Below, in pieces: positions 4,536 through 22,969 of a stretch of DNA of 64,000 nucleotides. Position 1 is the first letter of the stretch. Each line of letters starts with the position of its first letter. Where the stretch lies: assembly GCA_902799955.1 (NCBI GenBank), contig CADCCQ010000005.1:62001-126000 (forward strand), given 5' to 3'. The position numbers and the translations under genes are program-made. The notes below the pieces were generated by a model. The model had not been told where the DNA came from and did not search any database. It worked only from the letters and a program-made list of their open reading frames with translations. The DNA comes from an uncultured bacterium (GTDB lineage: Bacteria; Verrucomicrobiota; Kiritimatiellia; RFP12; UBA1067).

Positions 4536-7500
4536 CTATAGGAAACGTCCGGTAAACGACTCCTTGCAGGCGCGGATGGCGGAGACCGGGCCTTCGCAGA
4601 CGAGATTGCCGCCCTGGTCGCCGCCCCCGGGGCCAAGGTCCACGATCCAGTCGGCGCAGCGCATGACGTCGATGTTGTGTTCGATGACGATCACGGTGTT
4701 ACCCTGGTCGCGAAGTCCAAGGAGGATCTTCATCAGCTTGGCGACGTCGTCGAAGTGGAGGCCGGTCGTAGGTTCGTCGAGAAGGTACAGCGTCTTGCCG
4801 GTCGAGCGCCGCGAGAGCTCCGTCGCGAGCTTGATGCGCTGCGCCTCGCCGCCGGAAAGCGTCGTGGCGCTCTGCCCGAGCGCGATGTATCCGAGCCCGA
4901 CGTCCGCCAGCGTCCGCAGGCGGCGCGAGAGCGAAGGGACCTTCGCGAAGAAGTCGGCGGCCTCGGCGACGGTCATCTCGAGGACGTCGGCGATGGACTT
5001 GCCGCCGTACGTCACCTCGAGAGTCTCCGAGTTGAAGCGCTTGCCGCCGCACTGCTCGCACGTGACGTAGACGTCGGGGAGGAAGCTCATCTCCAGTTTC
5101 CTGGAGCCGTCGCCGCCGCACACCTCACACCGCCCGCCCTTTACGTTGAAGGAGAAGCGCCCGGCGGTGTAGCCTCTGGCGCGGGCGGCCTCGGTCTTCG
5201 CGAAGAGCTCGCGGATATCCGAGAAGAAGCCGACGTAGGTGGCGGGGTTGGAACGCGGCGTCCTGCCGATCGGCGACTGGTCGATCTCTATCACCTTGTC
5301 GAAATACTCCACGCCCGAAAGCCTGCGGAACTTGCCGGGGCGCTCTTTCGCGTTGTAGAGCCGCTGCATCAACGCCCGCTTCAACGTCTCTTCGACGAGC
5401 GTTGACTTCCCGGAGCCGGAGACGCCGGAAACGACGGTGAACGCCCCTACGGGGAACCTGGCGGTTATGTTTTTGAGGTTATGCTCGGAGCAGCCAGAGA
5501 TGGTGAGGAATTGGCCGAACTCAGTTCGGCCATCAAATCTGGCGGCGGACGAGCCAGACTGCTCAGGCGCAGTTCGGCCATCACTCCCCCTTCTTGCCTC
5601 GCCGCAAACCGTTTTCCTGCCGGTGAGGTAGTCGGCTGTGAGGCTCTTTGCCTTCAGCAGCCCGGGGAACGGCCCCTGGTACATCACAAGGCCGCCTTCG
5701 CGCCCCGCGCCCGGCCCGAGGTCGACTATGTAGTCGGCCGCACGCATCATCTCCTCGTCATGCTCGACGACAACCACCGTGTTGCCGCGGTCGCGAAGCC
5801 CCTTCAAGGTGGAAATCAGCCGCTCGTTGTCGCGTGGATGAAGCCCGATCGTCGGCTCGTCAAGGACATAGAGAACCCCGGTGAGGCCGGAGCCGATCTG
5901 CGTCGCGAGGCGGATTCTCTGCATCTCGCCGCCGGAAAGCGACGATGACGCCCGGTCAAGCGTAAGGTAGTCGAGGCCGACGTCTATCAGGAACTCCAGG
6001 CGCTTGACGATCTCACGCAATACGTCGTGAAGACCGGCAAAGCTGGGGGACTTGGGAAGCTGGGAATCCGGGGATTGTGGAATCGCGTGGTCATGGGAAC
6101 AGCCATCATCGCACAATCGCGTGAAAAACTCCAATGCCTCAGTCACCGGCATGGCCATCACCTCTACGATCGTCTTGCCCGCGACTGTCGCCGCGCACGA
6201 CTCCGGACGCAGGCGCGCGCCGTGGCAGTCGGGGCAGACGCGGAAGCTCTGGTAGGCGTCGTACTTGGCGCGCACCTCGTCGTCCTGCGCCTCGTCGCGC
6301 TTGCGCTGTAGCGCGGCAAGTACGCCTTCAAACGGGCGATCCACGCTGCGCCACGGCAGGACGAGGTCGTCCTTGAAGCCGTGCATAAGCCCGTGGCGGA
6401 ACTTCGCCGGGAGCTTTTCGTAGGGAGTGGAGAGCTTCACCTTGTACTGCGCGGCTATCCGCGAAAGAAGCTCCTTGTGATAGAGGATGGCCATCTGCCC
6501 GCCGAGCCGGCGCCAGGGGTGGATCGCCTCCTCGAGGGGAAGGGTCTTGTCTGGCACCACCAGCTCTTCGTCGAAGAAGTAGAGTTGCCCGATGCCGGAG
6601 CAAGTCGGGCAGGCCCCGAACGGCGAGTTGAAAGAGAACGAGCGGGGCTTTAGCTCTTCGAAGGATATGCCGCAGTCGGGGCAGGCGTTTAGTTCGGAGT
6701 AGGTCGTAATGGCCGACCTGAATGGCCGGCCATCAGGTTGAGAAGACCTCTCTGACATAGAAAGCATATTGGATTGAACAACGGAAGCGGTGGTGGGCCG
6801 GCCATCAGGTTGAGAAGACCTCTCTGACCCAAAGAACTTATTGGATTGGGCAGCGGAAGCTTTGTCGGGCAGGCCATCAGGTTGAGACAACCTTTCTGAC
6901 CTAGAAGGCTTATTGGATTGGGCAGCGGAAGTTTTGCCAGGCAGGCCATCAGGCTGGGCGCCGGAACCTGCATTGGGCTGGCCATCGGATTGCGCACCGA
7001 CCTCCTCGACTTCGATTATGCCGCCGCCCGTCTTGAGGGCGAGTTCAACGGAGTCGGTGAGGCGCGTCCTGTCGCAGGGGATGACGATGCGGTCGACTAC
7101 GACGTAGATGCTGTGGGCTTTCTTCTTGTCGAGCGCGGGGACTTCCTCTATCGGGTATGTCGTGCCGTCGACTCGGACGCGGACGAAGCCCTTGCGGCGC
7201 AGCTCCTCGATCACCGACTCGTGACGGCCCTTCTTGCCCTTCACGACCGGCGCATAGATGATGATACGCCGCTTCCCGTTCCCGAGAATCGCATCGACAA
7301 TCTGCTCGGCGGACTGCTTGGTGACGGGCCTGCCGCAATGCGGACAATGCGCCACGGCGGCGGAACCATAGAGGATCCTCAGGTAATCGTGGATCTCCGT
7401 CACCGTCGCGACGATGGAACGGGGGTTGCCGCTCGTCGTGCGTTGCTCTATCGAAATCGCCGGGCTCAGGCCCTCTATCTTCTCGACGTCTGGCTTCTGC

Positions 7501-7703
7501 ATCCTGTCCAGGAACTGCCGCGCATACGCGGAAAGCGACTCCACGTAGCGGCGCTGCCCCTCTGCATAGAGTGTGTCGAACGCGAGCGAGGACTTGCCGC
7601 TGCCGGAGAGCCCGGTGACGACGGTGAGGGAATTCCTCGGAATCGTGACGTCGATGTTGCGAAGGTTGTGGACCTTCGCCCCCGTGATCGTTATGTCAGT
7701 CAT
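4536..7703 (-). CDS. uvrA: excinuclease ABC subunit A (UvrA) with repeat insertions
   Basis: UvrA is the damage-sensing ATPase of nucleotide-excision repair. This 1055-residue protein has both ABC halves: Walker A GLSGSGKSS near 35, signature SSSLSGGEMQRI, second Walker A GVSGSGKST and second signature ATTLSGGEAQRI. The zinc motifs CPHC, CPDC/CPTC and CEVC/CEQC are also present. The family is usually about 940 residues; the excess comes from three insertions. These are a 24-residue tandem repeat (nucleotides 6728-6987), an octamer-encoded Ser/Pro stretch (6045-6084) and a linker between the two ATPase halves (5512-5583). Start ATG 7703 (MTDITITGAK) is chosen by family alignment. It overlaps the stop of the upstream secreted-protein gene by 8 bp, an odd partner for a repair gene. 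Confidence 0.95.
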   Translation of the reverse strand: MTDITITGAKVHNLRNIDVTIPRNSLTVVTGLSGSGKSSLAFDTLYAEGQRRYVESLSAYARQFLDRMQKPDVEKIEGLSPAISIEQRTTSGNPRSIVATVTEIHDYLRILYGSAAVAHCPHCGRPVTKQSAEQIVDAILGNGKRRIIIYAPVVKGKKGRHESVIEELRRKGFVRVRVDGTTYPIEEVPALDKKKAHSIYVVVDRIVIPCDRTRLTDSVELALKTGGGIIEVEEVGAQSDGQPNAGSGAQPDGLPGKTSAAQSNKPSRSERLSQPDGLPDKASAAQSNKFFGSERSSQPDGRPTTASVVQSNMLSMSERSSQPDGRPFRSAITTYSELNACPDCGISFEELKPRSFSFNSPFGACPTCSGIGQLYFFDEELVVPDKTLPLEEAIHPWRRLGGQMAILYHKELLSRIAAQYKVKLSTPYEKLPAKFRHGLMHGFKDDLVLPWRSVDRPFEGVLAALQRKRDEAQDDEVRAKYDAYQSFRVCPDCHGARLRPESCAATVAGKTIVEVMAMPVTEALEFFTRLCDDGCSHDHAIPQSPDSQLPKSPSFAGLHDVLREIVKRLEFLIDVGLDYLTLDRASSSLSGGEMQRIRLATQIGSGLTGVLYVLDEPTIGLHPRDNERLISTLKGLRDRGNTVVVVEHDEEMMRAADYIVDLGPGAGREGGLVMYQGPFPGLLKAKSLTADYLTGRKTVCGEARRGSDGRTAPEQSGSSAARFDGRTEFGQFLTISGCSEHNLKNITARFPVGAFTVVSGVSGSGKSTLVEETLKRALMQRLYNAKERPGKFRRLSGVEYFDKVIEIDQSPIGRTPRSNPATYVGFFSDIRELFAKTEAARARGYTAGRFSFNVKGGRCEVCGGDGSRKLEMSFLPDVYVTCEQCGGKRFNSETLEVTYGGKSIADVLEMTVAEAADFFAKVPSLSRRLRTLADVGLGYIALGQSATTLSGGEAQRIKLATELSRRSTGKTLYLLDEPTTGLHFDDVAKLMKILLGLRDQGNTVIVIEHNIDVMRCADWIVDLGPGGGDQGGNLVCEGPVSAIRACKESFTGRFL
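5512..5583. repeat. GGCCATCA repeat pair and palindrome in the uvrA inter-domain linker
   Basis: GGCCATCA occurs at 5528-5535 and 5576-5583 (48 bp apart). The first copy ends a perfect palindrome whose 10-bp arms are 5512-5521 and 5523-5532, with a 1-nt centre. It encodes a Gly/Ser/Ala/Asp-rich linker between the two ABC halves. Confidence 0.75.
6045..6084. repeat. octamer array inside uvrA
   Basis: Five consecutive octamers of the type TGGGAATC (GGGGGACT, TGGGAAGC, TGGGAATC, CGGGGATT, GTGGAATC) fill 6045-6084. They encode a Ser/Pro-rich insertion just before the LREIVKRLEFL helix. Confidence 0.7.
6728..6987. repeat. 72-bp tandem repeats in uvrA
   Basis: GGCCATCA starts at 6728, 6800, 6872 and 6944, exactly 72 bp apart, with a variant GGCCATCG 36 bp later at 6980. 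Each 72-bp unit encodes 24 residues beginning QPDG(L/R)P. The left end is an imperfect palindrome around 6716-6737. The array sits between the UvrB-binding-region strands and the CPDC zinc motif. Confidence 0.88.
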
Positions 7704-21715: not shown

Positions 21716-22969
21716 CTACAACACTTTCATCTTCGGAAGATCCTGTATGTCGACCACGCCGACGACGCGGCCTGCGCCGTCGCACACAGGGAGGTCGTCT
21801 ATTCTGCGCCGCTCGAAGATTTTCAGCAGCTCCGAGGCGTATGCGTTGTCGCGCACGAAGAGCGGAGAGCGGGTCATGTAGCTGGAGACCGGCTGGCCAA
21901 GCACAGCTTGGCCATCAATGCTACGTGGAGCAGCCTGATCGCAGGGAGCGACATCGGCTTGGCCATCAATGCTACTTGGAGCAGCATGACCGCAGGCGGC
22001 GACAGCGGCTTGGCCATCAATGCCAGGAGAAGCCGACTGGGCACAGGGAACAGCGGGAGCTCCAACCCCGCCATGCTGCGACATCGCGCGACGGAAGTCG
22101 CCGTCCGTAAAGATGCCAAGCAGCCTTCCTTCGCCGTCGGCGATTACGGCGGAGCCGCTCTTCGCCTTCGTCATCGCCATCAGGGCGTCCATGACAGTAG
22201 ACTCCGGCGCGACGCTGGCCATCCTCTCCCCGGTGCGCATGACGTCCGTCACCTTCAGCACGAGCGCCCTGCCTATCGCCCCGGCCGGGTGGTTCATCGC
22301 ATAGCTGGAGACGTCGAACTTCATCGCATCGAGCATCACCATCGCAAGGGCGTCGCCCATCGCCATCGTCGCCGTCGTGGAGTTGGTAGGGGCCATGCCG
22401 AAGGGGCAGGCCTCCTTGCCGCACGGTATCTCGACGTGGATGTCGCTCATCGCGGCGAGGTTGGACTCGGGACGGCCTGTTAGCGAGATGACCTTCAGCC
22501 CGTGGCGGCGTATGGCCGGGATGAGGCGAAGTATCTCGTCCGACTCGCCGGAGAAGCTGAGCGCCAGAAGGACGTCGCGCGGCGCGACCATCCCAAGGTC
22601 GCCGTGCATGGCCTGGACGGGGTTGAGGACGATGGACCTGGTTCCGGTGGAGGCGAAGATCGCGCTGATCTTCTCCGCCACCGCCAGGTTCTTACCGACG
22701 CCGGTGACGACGATTATGCCCTCGGAGCTGACGCACCGCAGCATAAGCTCGACCGCCTTGGTGAAGCTCTCACCAAGTGATTCGCGCGTGCGGCGCAGGC
22801 CTTCGATCTCGATGTCGAAGACCTCGCGTGCGCGGTTGAGCATTTCGTCGCTTGTCATGTTTGTTTCTGGCTTTGGACTGGCGGGACGAGCGGGACCGGC
22901 GAGACTGACGCCTGTCGCGCCTGTCCCTCCCGTCTCGCCTGTCGTCTGCCTGTCGTCCGCCATTGGCAT
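21716..22969 (-). CDS. kdsD: KpsF/GutQ-type sugar-phosphate isomerase (arabinose-5-phosphate isomerase), SIS-CBS-CBS
   Basis: A 417-residue enzyme. An unusual Gly/Thr/Pro/Ala-rich N-terminal extension (1-37) is encoded by nonamer-like repeats. The SIS domain (about 55-215) carries LALSFSGESDEILRLIPAIRRHG and APTNSTTATMAMGDALA. CBS1 (about 235-290) and CBS2 (about 355-410) follow. The family converts ribulose-5-phosphate to arabinose-5-phosphate for Kdo/LPS synthesis. Between the CBS domains lies a roughly 50-residue insertion with three SIDGQA/GIDGQA repeats, absent from ordinary family members (about 325 residues). Start 22969 is supported by AGGAG, which overlaps the pta stop codon, so translation follows pta directly. 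Confidence 0.85.
   Translation of the reverse strand: MPMADDRQTTGETGGTGATGVSLAGPARPASPKPETNMTSDEMLNRAREVFDIEIEGLRRTRESLGESFTKAVELMLRCVSSEGIIVVTGVGKNLAVAEKISAIFASTGTRSIVLNPVQAMHGDLGMVAPRDVLLALSFSGESDEILRLIPAIRRHGLKVISLTGRPESNLAAMSDIHVEIPCGKEACPFGMAPTNSTTATMAMGDALAMVMLDAMKFDVSSYAMNHPAGAIGRALVLKVTDVMRTGERMASVAPESTVMDALMAMTKAKSGSAVIADGEGRLLGIFTDGDFRRAMSQHGGVGAPAVPCAQSASPGIDGQAAVAACGHAAPSSIDGQADVAPCDQAAPRSIDGQAVLGQPVSSYMTRSPLFVRDNAYASELLKIFERRRIDDLPVCDGAGRVVGVVDIQDLPKMKVL
21894..22019. repeat. 51-bp GGCCATCA repeats with palindrome in the kdsD-like gene
   Basis: GGCCATCA begins at 21910, 21961 and 22012, exactly 51 bp (17 codons) apart. The first copy is part of a perfect hairpin, arms 21894-21902 (TGGCCAAGC) and 21906-21914 (GCTTGGCCA). 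The coding strand reads TGATGGCC, giving Asp-Gly in each unit, as in the uvrA repeats. Confidence 0.85.

Follow-up and report, generated by a model that had tools for sequence, protein, structure and literature searches.

A tandem array and a palindrome in a kdsD-like gene

The window that we analyzed is a 64,000-nucleotide stretch of DNA (contig C5:62001-126000) from a 3.8-Mb, 148-contig assembly (genome G000) whose genus we place among gut Kiritimatiellae from the nearest relatives of its transposase (see below). On its reverse strand lies a kdsD-like sugar-phosphate isomerase gene (21716-22969) that encodes a 417-aa protein in which Pfam recognizes a SIS domain (residues 85-210) and two CBS stretches (CBS, residues 361-411), and which is matched in 38 of 40 relatives. 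Within this gene the octamer GGCCATCA occurs on the forward strand at 21910, 21961 and 22012, a spacing of exactly 51 bp, and a perfect palindrome with 9-bp arms, TGGCCAAGC-ACA-GCTTGGCCA (21894-21914), stands at the start of the series, as a preliminary description of the locus had reported. TRF assigned the array a 51-bp period and 2.3 copies at 91% match (21906-22023), with a third copy, at 69%, extending to 22058. Read on the coding strand (reverse), the palindrome is TGGCCAAGC-TGT-GCTTGGCCA, the canonical orientation of the REP-like hairpin described below, and is translated as IDGQAVLGQ.

The linker between CBS1 and CBS2 is short in most relatives and has approximately 50 extra residues in G000. 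This lineage-specific insert (21920-22066, reverse strand; residues ~302-350) is missing or substituted by other repeats in relatives. Its earlier placement between CBS domains holds, with Pfam locating residues ~302-350 between them, and exactly the span 302-350 has a pLDDT below 50 in the AlphaFold model and is thus predicted to be disordered. The corresponding linker of genome G002 contains an insert unrelated to that of G000, and those of G012 and G007 (L044, L052) contain species-specific 7-bp simple repeats (CCACGAA, GGGAACG).

The window also contains uvrA (4542-7703, reverse strand; 1054 aa), which has three lineage-specific linker inserts and whose linkers behave like the kdsD linker across relatives; the linkers of both genes are permissive landing sites. 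A hairpin at 5512-5532 (reverse strand), TGGCCGAAC-TGA-GTTCGGCCA, reads FDGRTEFGQ; the kdsD hairpin is built alike but differs in its arms (AAGC/GCTT in place of GAAC/GTTC). Situated 48 bp from the full uvrA hairpin, at approximately 5572-5583 (reverse strand), is a half-hairpin copy that repeats the left arm GATGGCCGAAC, includes GGCCATCA at 5576-5583 and diverges at the loop. A separate 72-bp array (6724-6953, reverse strand) has TGATGGCC in every unit; it gave no match to our covariance model R1 (see below) and is probably a degenerate relative of the hairpin. In both the 8-mer and the Asp-Gly frame, the uvrA copies of GGCCATCA (5528, 5576 and 6728-6951) match those of kdsD, in agreement with the preliminary description. 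The third uvrA insert (window positions 6040-6120) resembles the 8-bp simple repeats that G000 has in its intergenic DNA.

The dispersed unit is a 21-nt hairpin

GGCCATCA is strongly enriched in the window, with 13 occurrences against 1.98 expected and a maximum of 6 in shuffled sequence. It had been proposed that spaced copies of the octamer would serve as a genome-wide signature of a family of elements. We dropped this signature: pairs with gaps of 30-60 bp number 4 in the whole genome, 3 of them in the window, and one (C71) is a chance pair in unrelated coding sequence. The octamer and its 51-bp spacing are therefore real, yet they are not the dispersed unit. We also rejected the idea that the 51-bp unit forms a dispersed family, as a protein search with the insert returned itself alone and the genome contains the unit at no other place. 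Rather than bounding an element, as had been suggested, GGCCATCA forms one foot of a hairpin 21 nt long.

Whole-genome searches were complemented by a 1.25-Mb sample of stretches of G000, in which GGCCATCA occurs 74 times, a moderate excess over Markov expectations of 38-56, and is clustered at few places. One cluster, in a GDP-mannose dehydratase-like gene (L176), ends in CTAGATTTGATGGCCGAACTGTGTTCGGCCAA, which is nearly identical to CCAGATTTGATGGCCGAACTGAGTTCGGCCAA of uvrA and is read in a different frame; across the hairpin the two genes have approximately 30 bp in common. Conservation of DNA across different reading frames contradicts a protein-level cause. ORFs of G000 also harbor many other in-frame tandem arrays, of 24-96 bp, that lack GGCCATCA (L106:15832-16094, L111:18909-19184, L115:3266-3464, L156:765-922 and L188:10240-10388).

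The hairpin consensus is AGnnTTGA-TGGCC-NNNC-TGN-GNNN'-GGCCA, a 21-nt stem-loop with AGnnTTGA as its 5' context. When we searched 29 genomes of the genus for GATGGCC-N(7-14)-GGCCA, 29 of the 53 instances with an 11-nt gap were self-complementary inside, compared to 5 of 69 with other gaps and approximately zero in a reversed control. Eight perfect hairpins are present in the 1.25-Mb sample, and none appeared in any of 20 simulations. The stems vary with compensating changes: among 38 copies, which had been selected for pairing, both sides had changed in five of the nine stem pairs and pairing stood at 98%, well above shuffled and slid controls. In the upstream tag, 37 and 42 of 48 copies keep A and G, respectively, at -8/-7, and the two preceding bases are not GT. 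An Rfam search of the window gave no match.

Hairpins reside within essential genes

We examined the distribution of the hairpin with a covariance model, R1, in 29 genus genomes, all of them MAGs of 56-95% completeness with manual gene calls. R1 was built from copies that it later scores and its fit to these sequences is circular, which applies to most strong sites in G000, including those in kdsD (21888-21926, 46.7 bits, E 2.5e-10) and uvrA (5506-5544, 53.8 bits, E 1.9e-12). Ten of the 29 genomes have R1 matches, with 23 in G000, at 22 sites (one matched on both strands), and 4-13 in each of the other nine; at E <= 0.01, R1 found none in the remaining 19. Twenty of the 22 sites in G000 lie inside genes with Pfam or NCBIfam support, on either strand. 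Single sites are found in uvrA, kdsD, valS, ileS, alaS and the genes for the GDP-mannose dehydratase-like protein, a family-2 glycosyltransferase, a glutamine amidotransferase, an alcohol dehydrogenase, a Spi-inhibitor protein and a metallopeptidase; leuS, gltB and a TPP enzyme gene of the acetolactate synthase type have two each, and a RAYT gene has three. The other two sites are in a 789-aa ORF without assignment and immediately downstream of the RAYT ORF. A 21-base hairpin has spread inside essential genes of this genus without breaking them.

Five of the six frames of the hairpin lack a stop codon, one sense frame being closed by TGA. The frames in use in G000 are sense xDG[QR] (9), sense LMAEL (5), antisense LA[EK]xSxAI (5) and another antisense frame (1), such that near-identical hairpins read as LMAELCSA in the GDP-mannose dehydratase-like gene, VSELRSD in ileS and LA[EK]xSxAI in antisense copies. 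The fixed frame that was originally envisaged is contradicted by this variety, yet some bias in frame exists, in that the two rare antisense frames are used less often than expected (P 0.0005, from a hand count made after the data had been seen).

Some sites recur between species. Six genomes have the valS hairpin at one and the same position, and gltB hairpins occupy two places, in five and three genomes; at these common sites the stems differ between species and are mostly self-consistent. Because hairpin sites are common to several species, the present distribution is partly vertical. At those gltB places, G002 has its own different element or simple repeats. The G002 element, with core CACCCCTCTAGCGACCGCTTGCGCGGCTCGCTTCGCTCGGGGGATA, is dispersed, often flanked by 7-bp repeats (L116-L124, e.g. 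L116:1501-1650; L143 in gltB), and has two in-frame copies in uvrA and further in-frame copies in kdsD, gltB and the gene for a coaE-like kinase, in some cases in the same linkers as the hairpin. We considered the 50-aa G002 insert in the kdsD and uvrA linkers as a member of the hairpin family and rejected it as a different element with its own core.

Tandem units contain half-hairpins

We searched for extra arms within 300 bp around 66 hairpins. Left-half copies lie upstream of the full hairpin in uvrA, kdsD, gltB, valS and other genes, in several genomes, and cease to resemble it in or close to the apical loop; in G023 there are right-half copies downstream. Each of the 51-bp units in kdsD (21906-22058, reverse strand) thus consists of flank plus left half-hairpin (TTGATGGCCAAGC) and diverges at the loop. 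The 51-bp units are secondary, and the kdsD repeat is most likely the recognizable scar of a mobile element as opposed to a stand-alone 51-bp element. We infer that slippage or a template switch at the folded hairpin gave rise to the arrays; ends made by an enzyme fit the data equally. The preliminary proposal of one family of protein-compatible palindromic elements, similar to those of Rickettsia, thus stands for the linkers of kdsD and uvrA, with the amendment that the common unit is the terminal hairpin and not a 51- or 72-bp repeat bounded by GGCCATCA.

A candidate transposase fused to a DprA-like domain

On contig C15 of G000, hairpins are grouped about one ORF (L176:11098-12612) that encodes the motifs VMPDHVHF, RRFKNYTT and WQQGYHDY...ERYIAYNP and is a RAYT-type transposase gene fused to a DprA-like domain. 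Pfam Y1_Tnp misses the close family and was abandoned for finding the transposase; NCBIfam and profile or structure searches detect it. All five orthologues tested match NCBIfam NF047646 (REP-associated tyrosine transposase) at E 5e-10 to 5e-14, below the 80-bit equivalog cut-off, and the HUH residues H84/H86 and Y164 are invariant. In the predicted structure (mean pLDDT 81.9), the N-terminal part matches the fold of 4er8, a RAYT bound to a REP hairpin (Z 12.0), and the C-terminal part matches DprA (Z 12-13; 4ljl, Z 12.8) and ShosA (Z 14.5), in agreement with sequence profiles (ISDra2, 2e-6; DprA, 0.013). Its nearest named relatives are from rumen and gut Kiritimatiellae assemblies, which is our ground for placing the genus there, and other Kiritimatiellae assemblies with the RAYT-DprA gene also have hairpins in or adjoining it. 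Weaker relatives that match both the RAYT and the DprA parts (24-29% identity) exist in Bacteroidales and other Verrucomicrobiota. In the open-access literature we found no paper that combines DprA with a tyrosine transposase and none on palindromic elements of Kiritimatiellae.

The putative transposase gene itself bears the hairpin at both ends and internally. In G000, hairpins of opposite orientation precede the ORF (12298, +; a weak copy of 24.5 bits with R1) and follow it (11034, -), and an inverted pair lies inside it. The hairpin-derived segment of the protein falls between the HUH motif and the invariant-Tyr region and is predicted to be disordered. Close RAYT homologues (best match >= 434 bits) are present in 7 of the 10 genomes with hairpins and in 1 of the other 19 (P = 0.0005 over 29 genomes, uncorrected for phylogeny); G008, G011 and G020 have hairpins and no close RAYT, and G017 has a related RAYT and no hairpin. 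RAYT-DprA is likely the transposase for the hairpin, and that it mobilizes the hairpin is our inference.

Origin and spread of the hairpin

We consider it highly probable that the locus reflects a REP-like hairpin family, mobilization by RAYT-DprA and a later 51-bp duplication. According to this model, the kdsD palindrome (21894-21914) would be one copy of a hairpin that entered the linkers of many genes in frame, most likely mobilized by a RAYT-type HUH/Y1 transposase with a DprA-like fusion. Because five of six frames are free of stops, copies in flexible linkers would survive. The 51-bp repeat would have arisen later, when flank and the hairpin's 5' half were duplicated in tandem with the break falling in the loop, probably through polymerase slippage at the folded hairpin. 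Counting against the model are the low copy number (4-23 per genome), the reduction of the GTAG tag to AG, the mismatches between hairpin and close RAYT in G008, G011, G020 and G017, the NF047646 scores below the cut-off and the partly vertical distribution of sites.

An alternative explanation is that the hairpins are real and dispersed and the RAYT-DprA gene is merely one of their hosts, with another enzyme or host single-strand DNA processing (gene conversion, template switching) responsible for their spread. The three hairpin genomes without a close RAYT are consistent with this idea, as is the position of the RAYT gene's insert in a disordered linker, as in other genes. We nonetheless regard it as unlikely in view of the co-occurrence of gene and hairpin and of the opposite-orientation hairpins at the ends of the G000 gene, the defining arrangement of RAYT units (PMC2817692). 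It is considerably less probable still that the hairpin is an immobile signal used by the host (an RNA structure, uptake site or recombination site) and kept by selection: compensatory change does maintain stems at the same site in different species, but 19 of 29 genomes lack the hairpin, among them four of the five clean genomes with the highest completeness, and its copies are few and scattered over unrelated genes and both strands. That kdsD and uvrA contain two unrelated minisatellites sharing GGCCATCA by chance or through coding constraint (an Asp-Gly linker motif) is scarcely credible, for although arrays without the octamer abound in G000 ORFs and its excess in the sample is moderate, approximately 30 bp of common DNA recurs in different frames and on both strands with compensatory stems, and many hairpin copies have no array at all.

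Building on mobilization by RAYT-DprA, we tentatively entertain a broader possibility, to which we give somewhat less than even weight: RAYT-DprA may drive the hairpin into coding DNA as readily as elsewhere, its own ORF included, and may seed coding minisatellites through loop-breakpoint duplications, thereby diversifying the linkers of essential proteins such as tRNA synthetases, UvrA and glutamate synthase.

Comparison with known palindromic elements

REPs associated with RAYTs have been described (PMC2817692, PMC8266576); that of Stenotrophomonas has an 8-bp perfect stem and a 3-nt loop (PMC8266576, PMC2817692), and REP copies typically exceed 100 (PMC2817692). REPtrons are recognized by predominantly extragenic palindromes and by a hairpin that is bound and cleaved (C|T) by its cognate transposase. 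The Kiritimatiellae family comprises a dispersed short palindrome, a RAYT-type Y1/HUH gene and inverted flanking palindromes. It is like REPtrons in having a palindrome in the 20-40 nt range, here with a 9-bp stem, a 3-nt loop, compensatory stem changes and some inverted pairs, and in the opposite-orientation palindromes at the ends of its Y1/HUH transposase gene. By contrast, it has 4-23 copies instead of more than 100, is mostly intragenic, and its transposase is fused to a DprA-like domain and holds a hairpin pair inside its ORF. Since only the AG of the GTAG tag is conserved, we do not file the family as a GTAG REP, and since 20 of 22 sites in G000 are in genes rather than extragenic, we call it REP-like and not REP.

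Kiritimatiellae belong to the PVC superphylum. Opitutus terrae, a PVC member, has intragenic GTAG/CGTC REPs, as do Thioalkalivibrio and Thauera (Di Nocera 2013, PMC3733652), and intragenic REPs in uvrA (including that of Opitutus) and in tRNA synthetases are documented together with Rickettsia palindromic elements (RPEs; PMC3733652). The likeness lies in REP-like palindromes in frame in conserved genes, among them uvrA and tRNA synthetases; the Kiritimatiellae family differs in tag and sequence family, in being nearly all intragenic and in its co-occurring candidate transposase. With RPEs it shares palindromic DNA tolerated in frame within protein genes, and it differs in that its element is a 21-nt hairpin accompanied by a RAYT homologue. 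To our knowledge, RPEs have no dedicated transposase. PARCEL repeats also place palindromic DNA within coding tandem repeats, but these are amphipathic domain repeats of 25 residues, lie in ORFs of unassigned function and are not hairpin insertions in housekeeping genes (PMC2996958).

Because intragenic REPs and RPEs have already been published, the Kiritimatiellae family is a variant of known elements; what is new is its mostly intragenic location, the AG in place of a GTAG tag, its low copy number and its DprA-fused RAYT. Since Rickettsia, palindromic elements have been known to occur inside genes; here a compact family resides mostly in essential genes, with half-hairpin arrays that suggest a route from dispersed palindrome to coding minisatellite. 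Its co-occurring transposase is structurally recognizable and has an unexpected DprA-like domain, which makes mobility into genes directly testable.
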